Assembly: GCF_016908635.1 (NCBI RefSeq)
Contig: NZ_JAFBEG010000001.1
Span: 186,001-250,000 of the forward strand
Length of the DNA stretch: 64,000 bases
Direction: 5' to 3'
Origin: Sporohalobacter salinus
GTDB taxonomy: Bacteria > Bacillota > Halanaerobiia > Halobacteroidales > Acetohalobiaceae
Under the pieces are notes generated by a model. It did no database searches and was not told the origin of the DNA. It worked only from the letters and a program-made list of their open reading frames with translations. Positions 45,826-49,430 of this stretch are shown in pieces (the first letter of the stretch is position 1; the number at the start of each line of letters is the position of its first letter). A program made the position numbers and the translations under genes.

Positions 45826-46006
45826 TAAAGTTTAAAAAACTTTAATATATAGAAGGTATTTAACTTAGAATATAGAAGAAATATTAATAAGTATATTATT
45901 TTTTATAAGAGATTTGTGAAAAAATGAACATCAATTGTAATTGTAGAAAAATATCGTTAAAAATTCAGGGAAATGGTTAATAAGAAAGTAAGGGGGAAGG
46001 GGATAA

Positions 46007-46366
46007 ATGAAACTTAAAGATATTAAGGATATTACGAAATCAAAAGTGATAGTAGGAGAAAATAACTTAGACCTAGAAATTAATGCAGCTTGTGGTGCTG
46101 ATTTAATGAGTGATGTATTAGCCTTTACTGCTGAAAAAACTCTCTTATTAACAGGATTAACTAAGCTTCAAGTTATTAGAACTGCTGACTTAATTGATTT
46201 AGCGGCAATTATTTTTGTTAGAGGGAAACAGCCGAGTGAAAAAACAGTAAAATTAGCTAAAGAAAGTGAGATTCCTCTTTTATATACTGATTATACTTTA
46301 TATGAATCATCTGGTCGACTGTATCAGGCGGGGTTAAGAGGAGATAGTCCAAAGGAGGAAGTATAA
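46007..46366 (+). CDS. DRTGG-domain protein 1
   Basis: 119 residues. A single DRTGG domain (related to the HPr-kinase N domain): VIVGENNLDLEINAACGADLMSDVLAF, TGLTKLQVIRTADLIDLAAIIFVRGKQPS, EIPLLYTDYTLYESSGRLYQAGL. DRTGG domains occur with CBS and phosphotransacetylase proteins and are thought to be small-ligand sensors. It is followed after one base by the CBS-ATPase and is paralogous to the gene at 47323. First gene of a five-gene regulatory module. Confidence 0.85.
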   Translation: MKLKDIKDITKSKVIVGENNLDLEINAACGADLMSDVLAFTAEKTLLLTGLTKLQVIRTADLIDLAAIIFVRGKQPSEKTVKLAKESEIPLLYTDYTLYESSGRLYQAGLRGDSPKEEV

Positions 46367-46367
46367 T

Positions 46368-47285
46368 TTGCAGAATTTTACATTAGAAATAACTAAGCAG
46401 ATTTCGGCTGATTTAACAATTAATGATATTATGACTGATGATGTAATTACATTACGTCCCGATAATAAGCTTAAAAATGCTAAAGAAATTATGCGCCTTA
46501 GAAAAATTTCCGGAATTCCTATTGTTGATAAGGATAAAAGGCTGCTTGGGATTATTAGTATTGATGACATTATTCAGGGACTTGAATATGATAAATTAGA
46601 TAATAAAATTAGTGATATGATGAGTACAGATTTAATTACGGTTAATCAAAATAGTTCAATTTCTGATGTCATATTTAAGTTTAAGAAGTATAAGTTTGGG
46701 AGATTACCTGTAATAGATGATAATGATAAATTAGTAGGACTTATTACTCCAGGAGATATCACTCGAAAATTATTAGCTAAGATGAAAGAGGAGATAAGTA
46801 AAGATGGTTTTGGCGAAGATAAAGTTAAAAAAGAAATAAAGAAGGGAAATGAAGAAGAGCTTCCTCCTTTGGAGTTGCAGATTGAAGGTGGCGATTTTAA
46901 AAGCGGTGGAAGTGCATCTAGTAAAATTAAGAATGTTTTAAAGAAATTAGAGATTAAAACACCTTTAATTAGAAAAGCAGCTATTATAGCTTATGAAGCG
47001 GAGATGAATGTAGTAATTCATGCTAAGCGAGGTAAAATATTGTTAGAAGCTGATCAAAATCAAATTAAAATCATTGTTGAAGATTCAGGTCCGGGAATTA
47101 AAGATATAGAATCTGCTATGAAGCCTGGTTATTCTACTGCTTCTGAGTATATTCGGGAACTAGGCTTTGGAGCTGGTATGGGTTTGGCAAATATTGAACG
47201 TTATTCAGACGAATTAAATATTGAATCAAAAGTAAATCAAGGTACTAGAATAGAAGCAGTGATTTATCTGGATTCAGATGATTAA
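46368..47285 (+). CDS. CBS-domain anti-sigma-like ATPase
   Basis: 305 residues from TTG 46368 with AAGGAGG upstream. Two CBS repeats (about 18-75 and 82-140: IMTDDVITLRPDNKL, DMMSTDLITVNQNSS) precede a linker and an RsbW/HATPase_c domain (about 190-305) with the N-box AYEAEMNVVIHA, G1 EDSGPGIKD and G2 GFGAGMGLANIERY motifs. Adenylate binding to the CBS pair would steer a serine-kinase or anti-sigma activity. Partner unknown. Confidence 0.87.
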   Translation: MQNFTLEITKQISADLTINDIMTDDVITLRPDNKLKNAKEIMRLRKISGIPIVDKDKRLLGIISIDDIIQGLEYDKLDNKISDMMSTDLITVNQNSSISDVIFKFKKYKFGRLPVIDDNDKLVGLITPGDITRKLLAKMKEEISKDGFGEDKVKKEIKKGNEEELPPLELQIEGGDFKSGGSASSKIKNVLKKLEIKTPLIRKAAIIAYEAEMNVVIHAKRGKILLEADQNQIKIIVEDSGPGIKDIESAMKPGYSTASEYIRELGFGAGMGLANIERYSDELNIESKVNQGTRIEAVIYLDSDD

Positions 47286-47322
47286 TTTAAAAGTTTGCTA
47301 GATATAAAGGAGGCGCTAAATT

Positions 47323-47655
47323 GTGAAGTTAACAAAAGTTGTTTCTAAGTTAGATTTAGAAGTGAGTGATAAATCAATTAATTTAGATTCTAAAATAACA
47401 GGAGGTTATTCTTCTGATTTGTTGAGTCATGTAATGGGGCAGGCTGAACCGGGTAACTTATGGATTACTATTCAGACACATCAAAATATAGTAGCAGTAG
47501 CGTCTTTAATTGAATTATCCGGGATTATAATTGTTGATGGAGTAGATTTAGATGATGAAACTATAACTAAGGCTAGAGAAGAAGAAATTCCTTTATTAAC
47601 TACTGAATTATCAGCTTATGAAGTAGCAGGTCGTCTGTATAAACTAGGAGTTTGA
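47323..47655 (+). CDS. DRTGG-domain protein 2
   Basis: 110 residues from GTG 47323 with AAAGGAGG ahead. Same domain as 46007 (SKITGGYSSDLLSHVMGQAEPGNLWITIQTHQ-type core, HQNIVAVASLIELSGIIIVDG, EIPLLTTELSAYEVAGRLYKLGV). It may pair with the first copy in sensing. It stands between the CBS-ATPase and the PHP gene. Confidence 0.83.
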   Translation: MKLTKVVSKLDLEVSDKSINLDSKITGGYSSDLLSHVMGQAEPGNLWITIQTHQNIVAVASLIELSGIIIVDGVDLDDETITKAREEEIPLLTTELSAYEVAGRLYKLGV

Positions 47656-47671
47656 GGAGTATTATATAATG

Positions 47672-48409
47672 ATGGAATATTTAGCTGATCTTCATATTCA
47701 TACAGTTCTGTCTCCTTGTGGAGATTTGTTAATGACACCGCAGAATATTATTCATGCGGCAGAAGAAAAGGAGATAGATATTTTAGCAATTACTGACCAT
47801 AATTCAGCTGGAAATTTGGAGGTAGCTTTAGAATTAGCTGAAGATTCAGATGTTAATATTATTCCGGGGATAGAGATTGAAACTAAAGAAGAAATTCATT
47901 TAATTGCTCTTTTTCCAAGTTTAGAAGAGGTGCTTTCTTTTCAAAAAATGATTTATTCTCATCTACCTTCGATTGATAATGATGAAGAACTTTTTGGCCC
48001 ACAATTAATTACTGACAATGAGGATCAATTTGTAGGTAGATTGGAACAATTACTTTTAGTGTCGATTGATCTTTCTTTAGAAAGAGCTATATCTGAGGCT
48101 AGGAGTAGAGAGGGAATAATTTTTCCAGCCCATGTTGGTAAAAAGGAGTATAGTATATTATCTAATTTAGGTTTTATCCCAGACGAAATCAATTTTTCAG
48201 TGTTAGAACTTTCTAAAAACAGCTCTAAAGCAGAGTTATATGATAAATTTCCTACAATAAAGTCTTATCCTTTAATAAAATCTTCAGATGCACATTATAT
48301 ATCTGATATATCACCACATATTAAATTTGATTTAAAAGCTCCAATATTGTCGGAGATTAATTTGGCTTTTAAAGGTAAAAAAGGACGTAAGGTAACATTT
48401 AATAATTGA
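47672..48409 (+). CDS. PHP-domain phosphoesterase
   Basis: 245 residues from the second of two adjacent ATGs (47669/47672), GAGGAG upstream. PHP motifs: DLHIHTVLSPCGD (HxH), ITDHNSAGN, GIEIETKEEIHLIALF, HVGKKEY and SSDAHYISDI. Metal-dependent phosphoesterase/hydrolase of the PHP superfamily. Similar genes occur in the regulatory group beside [FeFe]-hydrogenase operons; the substrate is unknown. Confidence 0.88.
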   Translation: MEYLADLHIHTVLSPCGDLLMTPQNIIHAAEEKEIDILAITDHNSAGNLEVALELAEDSDVNIIPGIEIETKEEIHLIALFPSLEEVLSFQKMIYSHLPSIDNDEELFGPQLITDNEDQFVGRLEQLLLVSIDLSLERAISEARSREGIIFPAHVGKKEYSILSNLGFIPDEINFSVLELSKNSSKAELYDKFPTIKSYPLIKSSDAHYISDISPHIKFDLKAPILSEINLAFKGKKGRKVTFNN

Positions 48410-48432
48410 TTATACTTATGGAGGAATAGAAA

Positions 48433-48990
48433 GTGAAAGAGTTATCACTACATATTTTAGATTTAGTACAGAATTCCATTAAAGCTGGAGCTACAGAAAT
48501 AAAAATAAAAGTAATTGAGGATTTGGTGGCTGATCAAATGAAGATTCTGATTGTAGATGATGGTAAAGGAATTTCTGATGAGTTTCTTGAAGAGGTATTA
48601 GATCCTTTTACTACAACTAGAACTACTCGAAAAGTAGGATTAGGTTTGCCTCTTTTTCAAGCTGCAGCTGAACAGTGTAGTGGAGGACTTAATATTTCAT
48701 CTAAAGAGGGGGAAGGTACAAAAGTAAAGGCGACTTTTCAGCATAGTCATATTGATCGTGCACCATTAGGGGATATTGAGGAAACTATTGCAACAATAAT
48801 TCAAGGAAATCCTAATTTGGAGATCTATTATCGACATGTAATCAATGATGAAGAATTTTTATTTGCTACATCTGATTTTAGAAAGAGATTAGAGGAAGTG
48901 CCTCTTGATGAACCAGAGGTACTTAGCTTTATTAAAGAATATTTATCAGAGAATATAGAAAAATTAAAGCAGCAGAATTATAAAGATTGA
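48433..48990 (+). CDS. stand-alone histidine-kinase-type ATPase
   Basis: 185 residues. HATPase_c domain alone: LHILDLVQNSIKAGATEI (N-box), VDDGKGISDEF (G1), KVGLGLPLFQAAAEQ (G2), GEGTKVKATFQ. No phospho-acceptor His domain is visible, so it is either an anti-sigma-like kinase or a subunit of a split kinase. The last 70 residues are not a recognised domain. Final gene of the DRTGG/CBS/PHP module. Confidence 0.85.
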   Translation: MKELSLHILDLVQNSIKAGATEIKIKVIEDLVADQMKILIVDDGKGISDEFLEEVLDPFTTTRTTRKVGLGLPLFQAAAEQCSGGLNISSKEGEGTKVKATFQHSHIDRAPLGDIEETIATIIQGNPNLEIYYRHVINDEEFLFATSDFRKRLEEVPLDEPEVLSFIKEYLSENIEKLKQQNYKD

Positions 48991-49211
48991 AATTAAATTT
49001 AAGATTTAAGCAGGAAGTTTTGTATTGATATAGAAAGAGTAAATCGAAGACATATATTTTTTAAAAGATTGTGAAAATAATAACTTTGATTAATTTGACT
49101 ATGTAGAGGTATAAGTGAAGGAATATTAATTTAAAAATATGATTGAATTTTCAGACAGATATTTAATGAAATTTGGTATATTTTTAAATTTAATGTAAAG
49201 GAGTGGTGATA

Positions 49212-49373
49212 ATGATATGTACTATTTGTGGTGAAGAAGTTTCTAGTCAAAAGTCCTGTAATATTTGTAATGAATGTGAAGAAAAGATAGATGAATTATC
49301 TCGAAAAATATTGAAATCACATAAGAAACTTACACTTCGCCATATAAAACAGGTTAAATGTAGTAATGCATAA
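49212..49373 (+). CDS. 53-residue zinc-ribbon protein
   Basis: Short gene with AAAGGAGTGGTGATA before ATG 49212. The product starts MICTICGEEV, then CNICNEC, giving a zinc-binding arrangement with Cys3/Cys6 and Cys16/Cys19/Cys22, followed by a basic helix (SRKILKSHKKLTLRHIK) and a late Cys. It is followed by a hairpin, which supports a real transcript. It could be a nucleic-acid-binding or adaptor protein; no family was recognised. Confidence 0.65.
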   Translation: MICTICGEEVSSQKSCNICNECEEKIDELSRKILKSHKKLTLRHIKQVKCSNA

Positions 49374-49400: not shown

Positions 49401-49430
49401 AAAGATTGTGCGTTTACGCACAATCTTTAT
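49401..49430 (+). terminator. terminator after the zinc-ribbon gene
   Basis: Arms AAAGATTGTGCG (49401-49412) and CGCACAATCTTT (49417-49428), loop TTTA, perfect 12-bp stem, T-rich tail. Confidence 0.85.

Follow-up and report, generated by a model that had tools for sequence, protein, structure and literature searches.

What is a regulatory gene set that accompanies hydrogenase genes in other anaerobes doing where no hydrogenase is encoded beside it? The question is raised by five open reading frames (ORFs) at positions 46007–48990 of a 64,000-nucleotide stretch of Sporohalobacter salinus DNA (contig NZ_JAFBEG010000001.1, positions 186,001 to 250,000), which we refer to as the window. The genes encode, in order, a small DRTGG-domain protein (DRTGG1), an ATPase with two CBS domains (CBS-HATPase), a second DRTGG protein (DRTGG2), a PHP-domain phosphoesterase (PHP), and a second ATPase (HATPase2). 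An initial annotation, made from the sequence alone, took this order to be the group that precedes nuoE/nuoF-like and [FeFe]-hydrogenase genes in several anaerobic Firmicutes, and proposed that either the hydrogenase genes had moved away or the module has a wider task. We favor, at somewhat better than even confidence, the reading that the window carries a CBS-type form of a widespread anaerobic signaling module, lacking the sensory-type hydrogenase HydS, in which adenylate- or H2-gated phospho-signaling would act on the hydrogenase HydABC and on Rnf. Comparative genomics shows the parts of this reading that can be drawn from gene content and order: a conserved unit, its repeated re-linking, the loss of HydS, and CBS domains on a kinase-like protein.

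All five genes are where the initial annotation placed them, intact and on one strand, with matches that exceed the curated Pfam cut-offs. They are arranged like an operon, with ribosome-binding sites and gaps of 1, 37, 13, and 23 bases. The sister species, whose genome is a single contig (G001; the window genome, of 2.68 Mb, is G000, and L numbers denote loci examined), has all five genes in this order, between the same M23 peptidase and amidase genes, at 75–83% identity. Because this order recurs in the sister species, and because 154 of the 398 sampled phylum genomes encode the module PHP, the arrangement is not due to chance. Ratios of nonsynonymous to synonymous substitution rates (dN/dS) between the two species are about 0.08–0.31 across the module genes, and the module is under purifying selection.

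The comparison with relatives drew on a scan of genome contigs (446 matches, of which 80 were kept), on the 398 phylum genomes with their 154 positives, and on fetched neighborhoods, which together yielded 144 loci where a HATPase gene precedes that of PHP. The typical order is DRTGG1-HATPase-HydS-DRTGG2-PHP-nuoE-HATPase2-Trx-nuoF-hydA. In families f5–f11 of the class, nuoE/nuoF adjoin the module in 19 of the 19 loci read, with hydA in all but one (a truncated contig), and many Clostridia loci likewise link the module to nuoE/nuoF/hydA. The proposed linkage is therefore borne out; the initial annotation had staked its idea on hydrogenase genes being found with the module in relatives, and such co-occurrence is common. 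Hydrogenase is not the only partner. In the taxonomic order to which the window genome belongs, the arrangement is folC-SPOR-DRTGG1-HATPase-HydS-DRTGG2-PHP-(HATPase2-Trx)-rnfCDGEAB, and the module also lies upstream of rnfCDGEAB in family f4 of the class. Family f2 has the module at rnf and, in a separate hydrogenase operon, the order nuoE-HATPase2-Trx-nuoF-hydA, so that HATPase2 is with hyd and PHP with rnf. In the class of genome G431, a rex gene (identified from its sequence) immediately precedes the module, which has the five-gene composition of the window at L242, L261, and L262, and lacks the HATPase at L246, L265, and L266. At these six loci, the gene order is rex-module-maf-(radC)-mreBCD, which puts rex on one side of the module and cell-shape genes on the other. 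Across 144 loci, the neighboring enzymes are HydA (68), Rnf without HydA (14), NuoF only (27), or none (35), the last two counts being too high because of contig ends and the limits of the stretches read. Since in several lineages the module adjoins rnf or rex or has no linked partner, its role is probably wider than the hydrogenase operon, and the either/or of the initial annotation resolves into two partly true halves: the module left the hydrogenase operon, apparently by way of the rnf operon, and its role is probably wider as well. Two loci from the same survey, L099 and L108, agree in the order and lengths of their genes and in BLAST scores but belong to metagenome-assembled genomes (MAGs) labeled Actinomycetota and Calditrichota; at least one of these labels is probably wrong.

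The protein embedded in the relatives' modules identifies what the window lacks. It has 430–450 amino acids, two ferredoxin clusters, an Fe_hyd_lg_C domain, and a C-terminal FeS domain, with no PAS domain. The C-terminal four-cysteine motif is present in 107 of 107 sequences, Ser or Thr occupies the M353 position in ~100 of the 107, and the residue before the H-cluster cysteine is never Cys in 99 readable cases, meaning that the proton-relay cysteine is missing. The four-cysteine motif, the absence of the proton-relay Cys, and M353 substitution are features of group D, or M2e (PMC8163306). By these features, the module HydS is a group D “putative sensory” [FeFe]-hydrogenase. In Halanaerobium polyolivorans (L112), HydS is split into two ORFs of 249 and 80 amino acids, by a frameshift or a sequencing error.

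CBS domains and HydS rarely occur together. Of the 144 loci, 22 have CBS only, 111 have HydS only, four have both, and seven have neither; the raw association gives a Fisher p of 4e-16, a value that ignores kinship among the loci. On a tree of the module, CBS changes five times, and among independent pairs HydS never changes in the same direction and changes in the opposite direction in 1–3. Because the loci are related and the independent events few, we describe the near-exclusion as a pattern in gene content and not as a proven dependency. Within the class, G000, G001, and G019 lack group D HydS, and all three have a CBS-HATPase; in the other 38 PHP-bearing genomes, HydS adjoins PHP. CBS domains are the feature that, on gene content, distinguishes the HydS-less form. 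HydS might merely have relocated within the genome, an explanation we reject, as no group D HydS is found anywhere in the window genome or in the single contig of the sister species.

The hydrogenases themselves are retained. The window genome has four Fe_hyd_lg_C genes at three loci (Table 1), all away from the module, in agreement with the initial description of a module that stands alone; none of the ORFs neighboring it is a hydrogenase gene. Elsewhere (contig C3, L008 6160-13557), a paralogous third DRTGG gene, of the DRTGG1 type, is followed by a second CBS-HATPase gene, a Trx-like [2Fe-2S] gene, and rnfCDGEAB. The sister species, too, retains the DRTGG1+CBS-HATPase pair at rnf. The two copies separated earlier than the two species did. 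Gene order indicates that, in this genus, the module has also left Rnf, with the DRTGG1+CBS-HATPase paralog remaining there.

Natural fusions support a single functional unit: DRTGG1-HATPase in six cases, and HydS-DRTGG2 (L122 and L202, of 565 and 563 amino acids), PHP-HATPase2, and HATPase2-Trx in two each. The fusions therefore assign the CBS pair to the partner of DRTGG1 and HydS to that of DRTGG2. HATPase2 accompanies the module (PHP) even where it is encoded inside the hydrogenase operon. It is single-copy in each genome, that of the window included, and its presence or absence matches that of PHP in 57 of 59 genomes; the two that deviate are a genome of 72% completeness and G020. In G020 (L280), PHP alone is gone from an otherwise intact CBS-type module, and Mrp/NifH-like ATPase genes lie between the module and rnf. 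Where the module is outside the hydrogenase operon in G001 and G019, that operon is nuoE-Trx-nuoF-hydA, without HATPase2.

An AlphaFold2 model of DRTGG1 (predicted local distance difference test score, pLDDT, 92.7) best matches the DRTGG structure 2ioj (AF1212) and the DRTGG domain of a CBS-containing pyrophosphatase (CBS-PPase; 3l31/3l2b), and also matches HPr-kinase N-domains. CBS domains of the DRTGG-bearing CBS-PPase bind AMP and Ap4A (PMC7705103). Both CBS domains of the window protein retain motifs of the G-h-h-[ST]-x-x-D type (GIISIDD and GLITPGD), as in adenosine sites; here, DRTGG and CBS are on separate adjacent genes and not in one chain. The ATPase domain retains the GHKL boxes with the catalytic Glu and Asn (YEAEMN, DSGPGI, and GFGAGMGLAN; family pattern YE.EMN, D.GPGI, GFGAGMGL.N), and scores 63 bits against an anti-sigma F factor model, below its cut-off of 135. 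DRTGG2 has a conserved motif of its own, Y..DLLS.VM. Eight PHP residues of the metal-ligand type (H9, H11, H44, E69, H77, H155, D207, and H209) are invariant across 20 sequences. The HATPase2 model (pLDDT 92.6) has a GHKL domain matching MutL and histidine kinases, and a conserved C-terminal extension.

From these features, a route can be sketched. DRTGG1 and the CBS pair may sense an adenine nucleotide (AMP/ADP/ATP or ApnA), by analogy with the pyrophosphatase, and so gate the SpoIIAB-like ATPase, which would phosphorylate a module partner, DRTGG2 being the favored candidate, or otherwise switch it. PHP would reverse the mark, and HATPase2 would pass the state to NADH/ferredoxin enzymes (HydABC and Rnf); in other genomes, the HATPase2 gene separates nuoE from the gene for the [2Fe-2S] protein Trx, or HATPase2 and Trx form one fusion protein. 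In HydS-bearing genomes, H2 would be the input instead, entering through HydS and DRTGG2. An exchangeable sensor, for H2 via HydS or for adenylates via CBS, acting on the bifurcating hydrogenase and Rnf, is in our judgment the most likely arrangement. The job is probably wider than hydrogen alone because the H2 sensor is lost, the module stands alone, and a putative nucleotide-type sensor sits on a kinase-like protein. SpoIIE-type phosphatase genes lie beside the CBS-type module in two Chloroflexi loci (L094 and L153, Thermoflexales/Anaerolineales MAGs); together with the one in the Hfs cluster of the window genome, they are compatible with a phospho-switch and do not prove one.

Several points weigh against this reading. 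Phospho-transfer and the ligand are both inferred, adenylate binding by analogy alone. The module encodes no STAS protein or sigma factor, so that a SpoIIAB-like partner switch would be missing its usual substrate. The CBS/HydS exclusion involves ~5 independent changes, and the tree-aware sign test (run twice) is underpowered and cannot reach significance; four loci have both CBS and HydS, and seven have neither, of which six are Nitrospirae-type (L129, L141, L157, L159, L160, and L162) and one is from Alkalibaculum. Lastly, the Rex box upstream of the window module is not fully conserved, the sister species retaining its first half-site only.

The proteins could have a different role. The GHKL ATPases might be Hsp90/MutL-type clamps, with PHP and DRTGG proteins as adaptors, that load cofactors into NuoE/NuoF/HydA and Rnf or assemble these complexes. 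The placement of HATPase2 between hydrogenase subunit genes, its two fusions to Trx, the resemblance of its model to MutL N-terminal domains, and the multi-cofactor nature of the complexes encoded by both hyd and rnf fit such helpers. However, a hydrogenase of the sensory type and CBS/DRTGG domains are characteristic of sensing systems, trimeric hydABC-type loci exist in genomes without any module (G003 L282 and G009 L284), and the stand-alone and rex-linked forms adjoin no complex; we consider assembly unlikely. A little less likely still is a role in transcription only, in which H2 or redox state is relayed to hyd/rnf transcription with the small DRTGG proteins binding DNA. Land et al. note that an AraC-type regulator accompanies TamHydS, the HydS of Thermoanaerobacter mathranii, and the family has links to Rex, but Pfam and other profile searches find no helix-turn-helix or other DNA-binding domain in the five proteins, DRTGG2 is the gene that follows HydS in the HydS-bearing loci read, and DRTGG1 resembles DRTGG and HPr-kinase N-domains.

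The loss of group D HydS from both congeners, and of the hydrogenase linkage, is also what a decaying remnant of a hydrogenase operon would leave behind. The five genes are intact with their catalytic motifs, and the same composition occurs in other lineages (L242, L106, and L156); we reject decay on the purifying selection between the two species, and give it very little credence. Lower again is the probability of a PHP-based defense or nucleic-acid-processing locus unrelated to redox. PHP resembles TrlF-type and other PHP proteins below threshold (56.8 bits against a cut-off of 350), but in the comparison with the large PHP-ATPase proteins of anti-phage systems (TrlF, PDC-M49A) the PADLOC matches are weak, at 25.5 bits over the first ~90 residues of 674- to 681-residue models, PADLOC finds no defense family covering more than a fragment, and the conserved linkage is to redox enzymes. 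A scan of viral contigs with the PHP protein gave zero matches.

Our preferred reading, a signaling module acting on NADH/ferredoxin enzymes, touches on the redox regulator Rex. Control of the hyd operon by Rex is reported for C. bescii (PMC6391272) and C. thermocellum (PMC8457756). A rex gene is present in the window genome, and a candidate operator precedes the module (Table 1). Rex boxes over the whole window are not above chance in number, and we therefore rely on enrichment across the family: Rex-like palindromes occur upstream of DRTGG1 (18%), nuoE (24%), and rnfC (21%, only 19 regions), compared with 3% for unrelated genes and ~1% for PHP and HydS. These frequencies suggest that, in part of the family, expression may be tied to NADH/NAD+ via Rex. 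In the same genome, a Rex-like box, ATGTGAAAAAAATAACAA (12/14), lies 31 bp before the Hfs-type hydrogenase operon (L011, contig C17, upstream of 12731 on the − strand). The rex gene itself is directly upstream of nuoF, NuoG/HydA-like, and formate-dehydrogenase-like genes (L263 5684-11162, contig C13), which suggests Rex control of a bifurcating formate dehydrogenase.

The features of the locus and the hydrogenase loci of the genome are listed in Table 1. A block at 45850-45895, upstream of DRTGG1 (ATATATAGAAGGTATTT.A.TTAGAATATAGAA), is strongly conserved between the two species and is a candidate promoter or other regulatory site. An Rfam search found no RNA family near the module. The zinc-ribbon gene that the initial annotation placed after the module is present, at a length other than the 53 residues given there. 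Its homolog in the sister species (L025 8109-8285) is 66% identical, and adjacency to the module is seen solely in that species; membership in the module is unproven. An AMIN/amidase gene follows the zinc-ribbon gene and its terminator, consistent with the cell-wall genes described earlier, and the module as a whole is flanked by M23 peptidase and amidase genes. No STAS or sigma partner gene is apparent among the surrounding ORFs.

Table 1. Features of the module locus (positions in the window) and hydrogenase loci of the same genome
Feature	Position	Strand	Details
Candidate Rex operator	45914..45931	+	TTGTGAAAAAATGAACAT; 93 bp before gene 1; 12/14 specified positions
DRTGG1	46007..46366	+	119 aa; Pfam PF07085, 31.5 bits
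CBS-CBS-HATPase (SpoIIAB/RsbW-type GHKL)	46368..47285	+	305 aa; TTG start; Pfam 2xCBS + HATPase_c_2, 110/37 bits
DRTGG2	47323..47655	+	110 aa; GTG start; Pfam PF07085, 27.8 bits
PHP-domain phosphoesterase	47669..48409	+	246 aa; Pfam PF02811, 34.2 bits
HATPase2 (GHKL ATPase, C-terminal extension)	48433..48990	+	185 aa; GTG start; Pfam HATPase_c, 59.3 bits
Zinc-ribbon protein gene	49203..49373	+	56 aa from GTG, 54 from ATG; DUF4428 weak, below cut-off
Intrinsic terminator after zinc-ribbon gene	49401..49428	+	12-pair stem, T-rich tail
Hydrogenase locus, contig C11			nuoE-Trx-nuoF-hydA; at contig end
Hydrogenase locus, elsewhere on contig C1			nuoE-nuoF-hydA
Hydrogenase locus, contig C17			Hfs-type pair with SpoIIE-like phosphatase

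The locus resembles several known systems and differs from each. It shares the order DRTGG1, HATPase, DRTGG2, PHP, HATPase2 with the group D HydS + HydABC operon of T. mathranii (TamHydS) and relatives, an order read in Halanaerobiia and Clostridia loci and not in T. mathranii's own; unlike that operon, it lacks HydS, nuoE, Trx, nuoF, and hydA, and its HATPase has two CBS domains. Its gene order is also that of the Rnf-linked module of Halanaerobiales (Orenia metallireducens, Halonatronum saccharophilum, and Candidatus Frackibacter), and the DRTGG1+CBS-HATPase paralog of the window genome is still at rnf, but the window copy is detached from folC-SPOR and rnf and has no HydS. A further counterpart is the rex-linked cluster at L242, L261, and L262, with the identical five genes, no hydrogenase, and no HydS; that cluster is flanked by folC/rex and maf-radC-mreBCD, and the window module by M23 peptidase and amidase genes. 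The regulatory region of the CBS-PPase of Clostridium perfringens (CBS-DRTGG-CBS, the source of 3l31/3l2b) combines both domain types, and its DRTGG is matched by the DRTGG1 model, whereas in the window the two are on separate proteins and a GHKL ATPase takes the place of the pyrophosphatase as output. Similarly, the anti-sigma kinases SpoIIAB and RsbW share the HATPase_c_2 fold, including the N, G1, and G2 boxes, but the window protein has an N-terminal CBS pair and no sigma factor or STAS partner nearby.

The linkage of group D HydS to hydrogenase genes is already known; the module as a unit, its linkage to Rnf and rex, the fusions, and the CBS/HydS alternation appear to be undescribed in the open-access literature. 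There, with most subscription papers outside the search, we found no paper describing the gene set; DRTGG with hydrogenase returned only an unrelated Desulfovibrio fitness paper, and PHP with HydS returned none.

Group D [FeFe]-hydrogenases are under study as sensors of H2, and the route by which they signal is left open in PMC8163306 and PMC13104023. The module is a concrete candidate pathway for group D HydS, which in two genomes is fused to DRTGG2, and which is encoded beside a SpoIIAB-like ATPase, PHP, and HATPase2; the fusion proteins at L122 and L202 could reveal how it docks its partner. S. salinus carries a naturally occurring form with CBS domains and no H2 sensor, and its genus, devoid of group D HydS, is one where a wider role is testable. 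Rnf, the other NADH/ferredoxin enzyme of anaerobes, is tied to the same control genes. At slightly under even odds in our estimation, the five genes may be the core of a general redox/energy signaling system in anaerobes whose sensors can be exchanged (group D HydS for H2, CBS for adenine nucleotides), which would control the bifurcating hydrogenase and Rnf and would supply the missing transduction partner of group D HydS.

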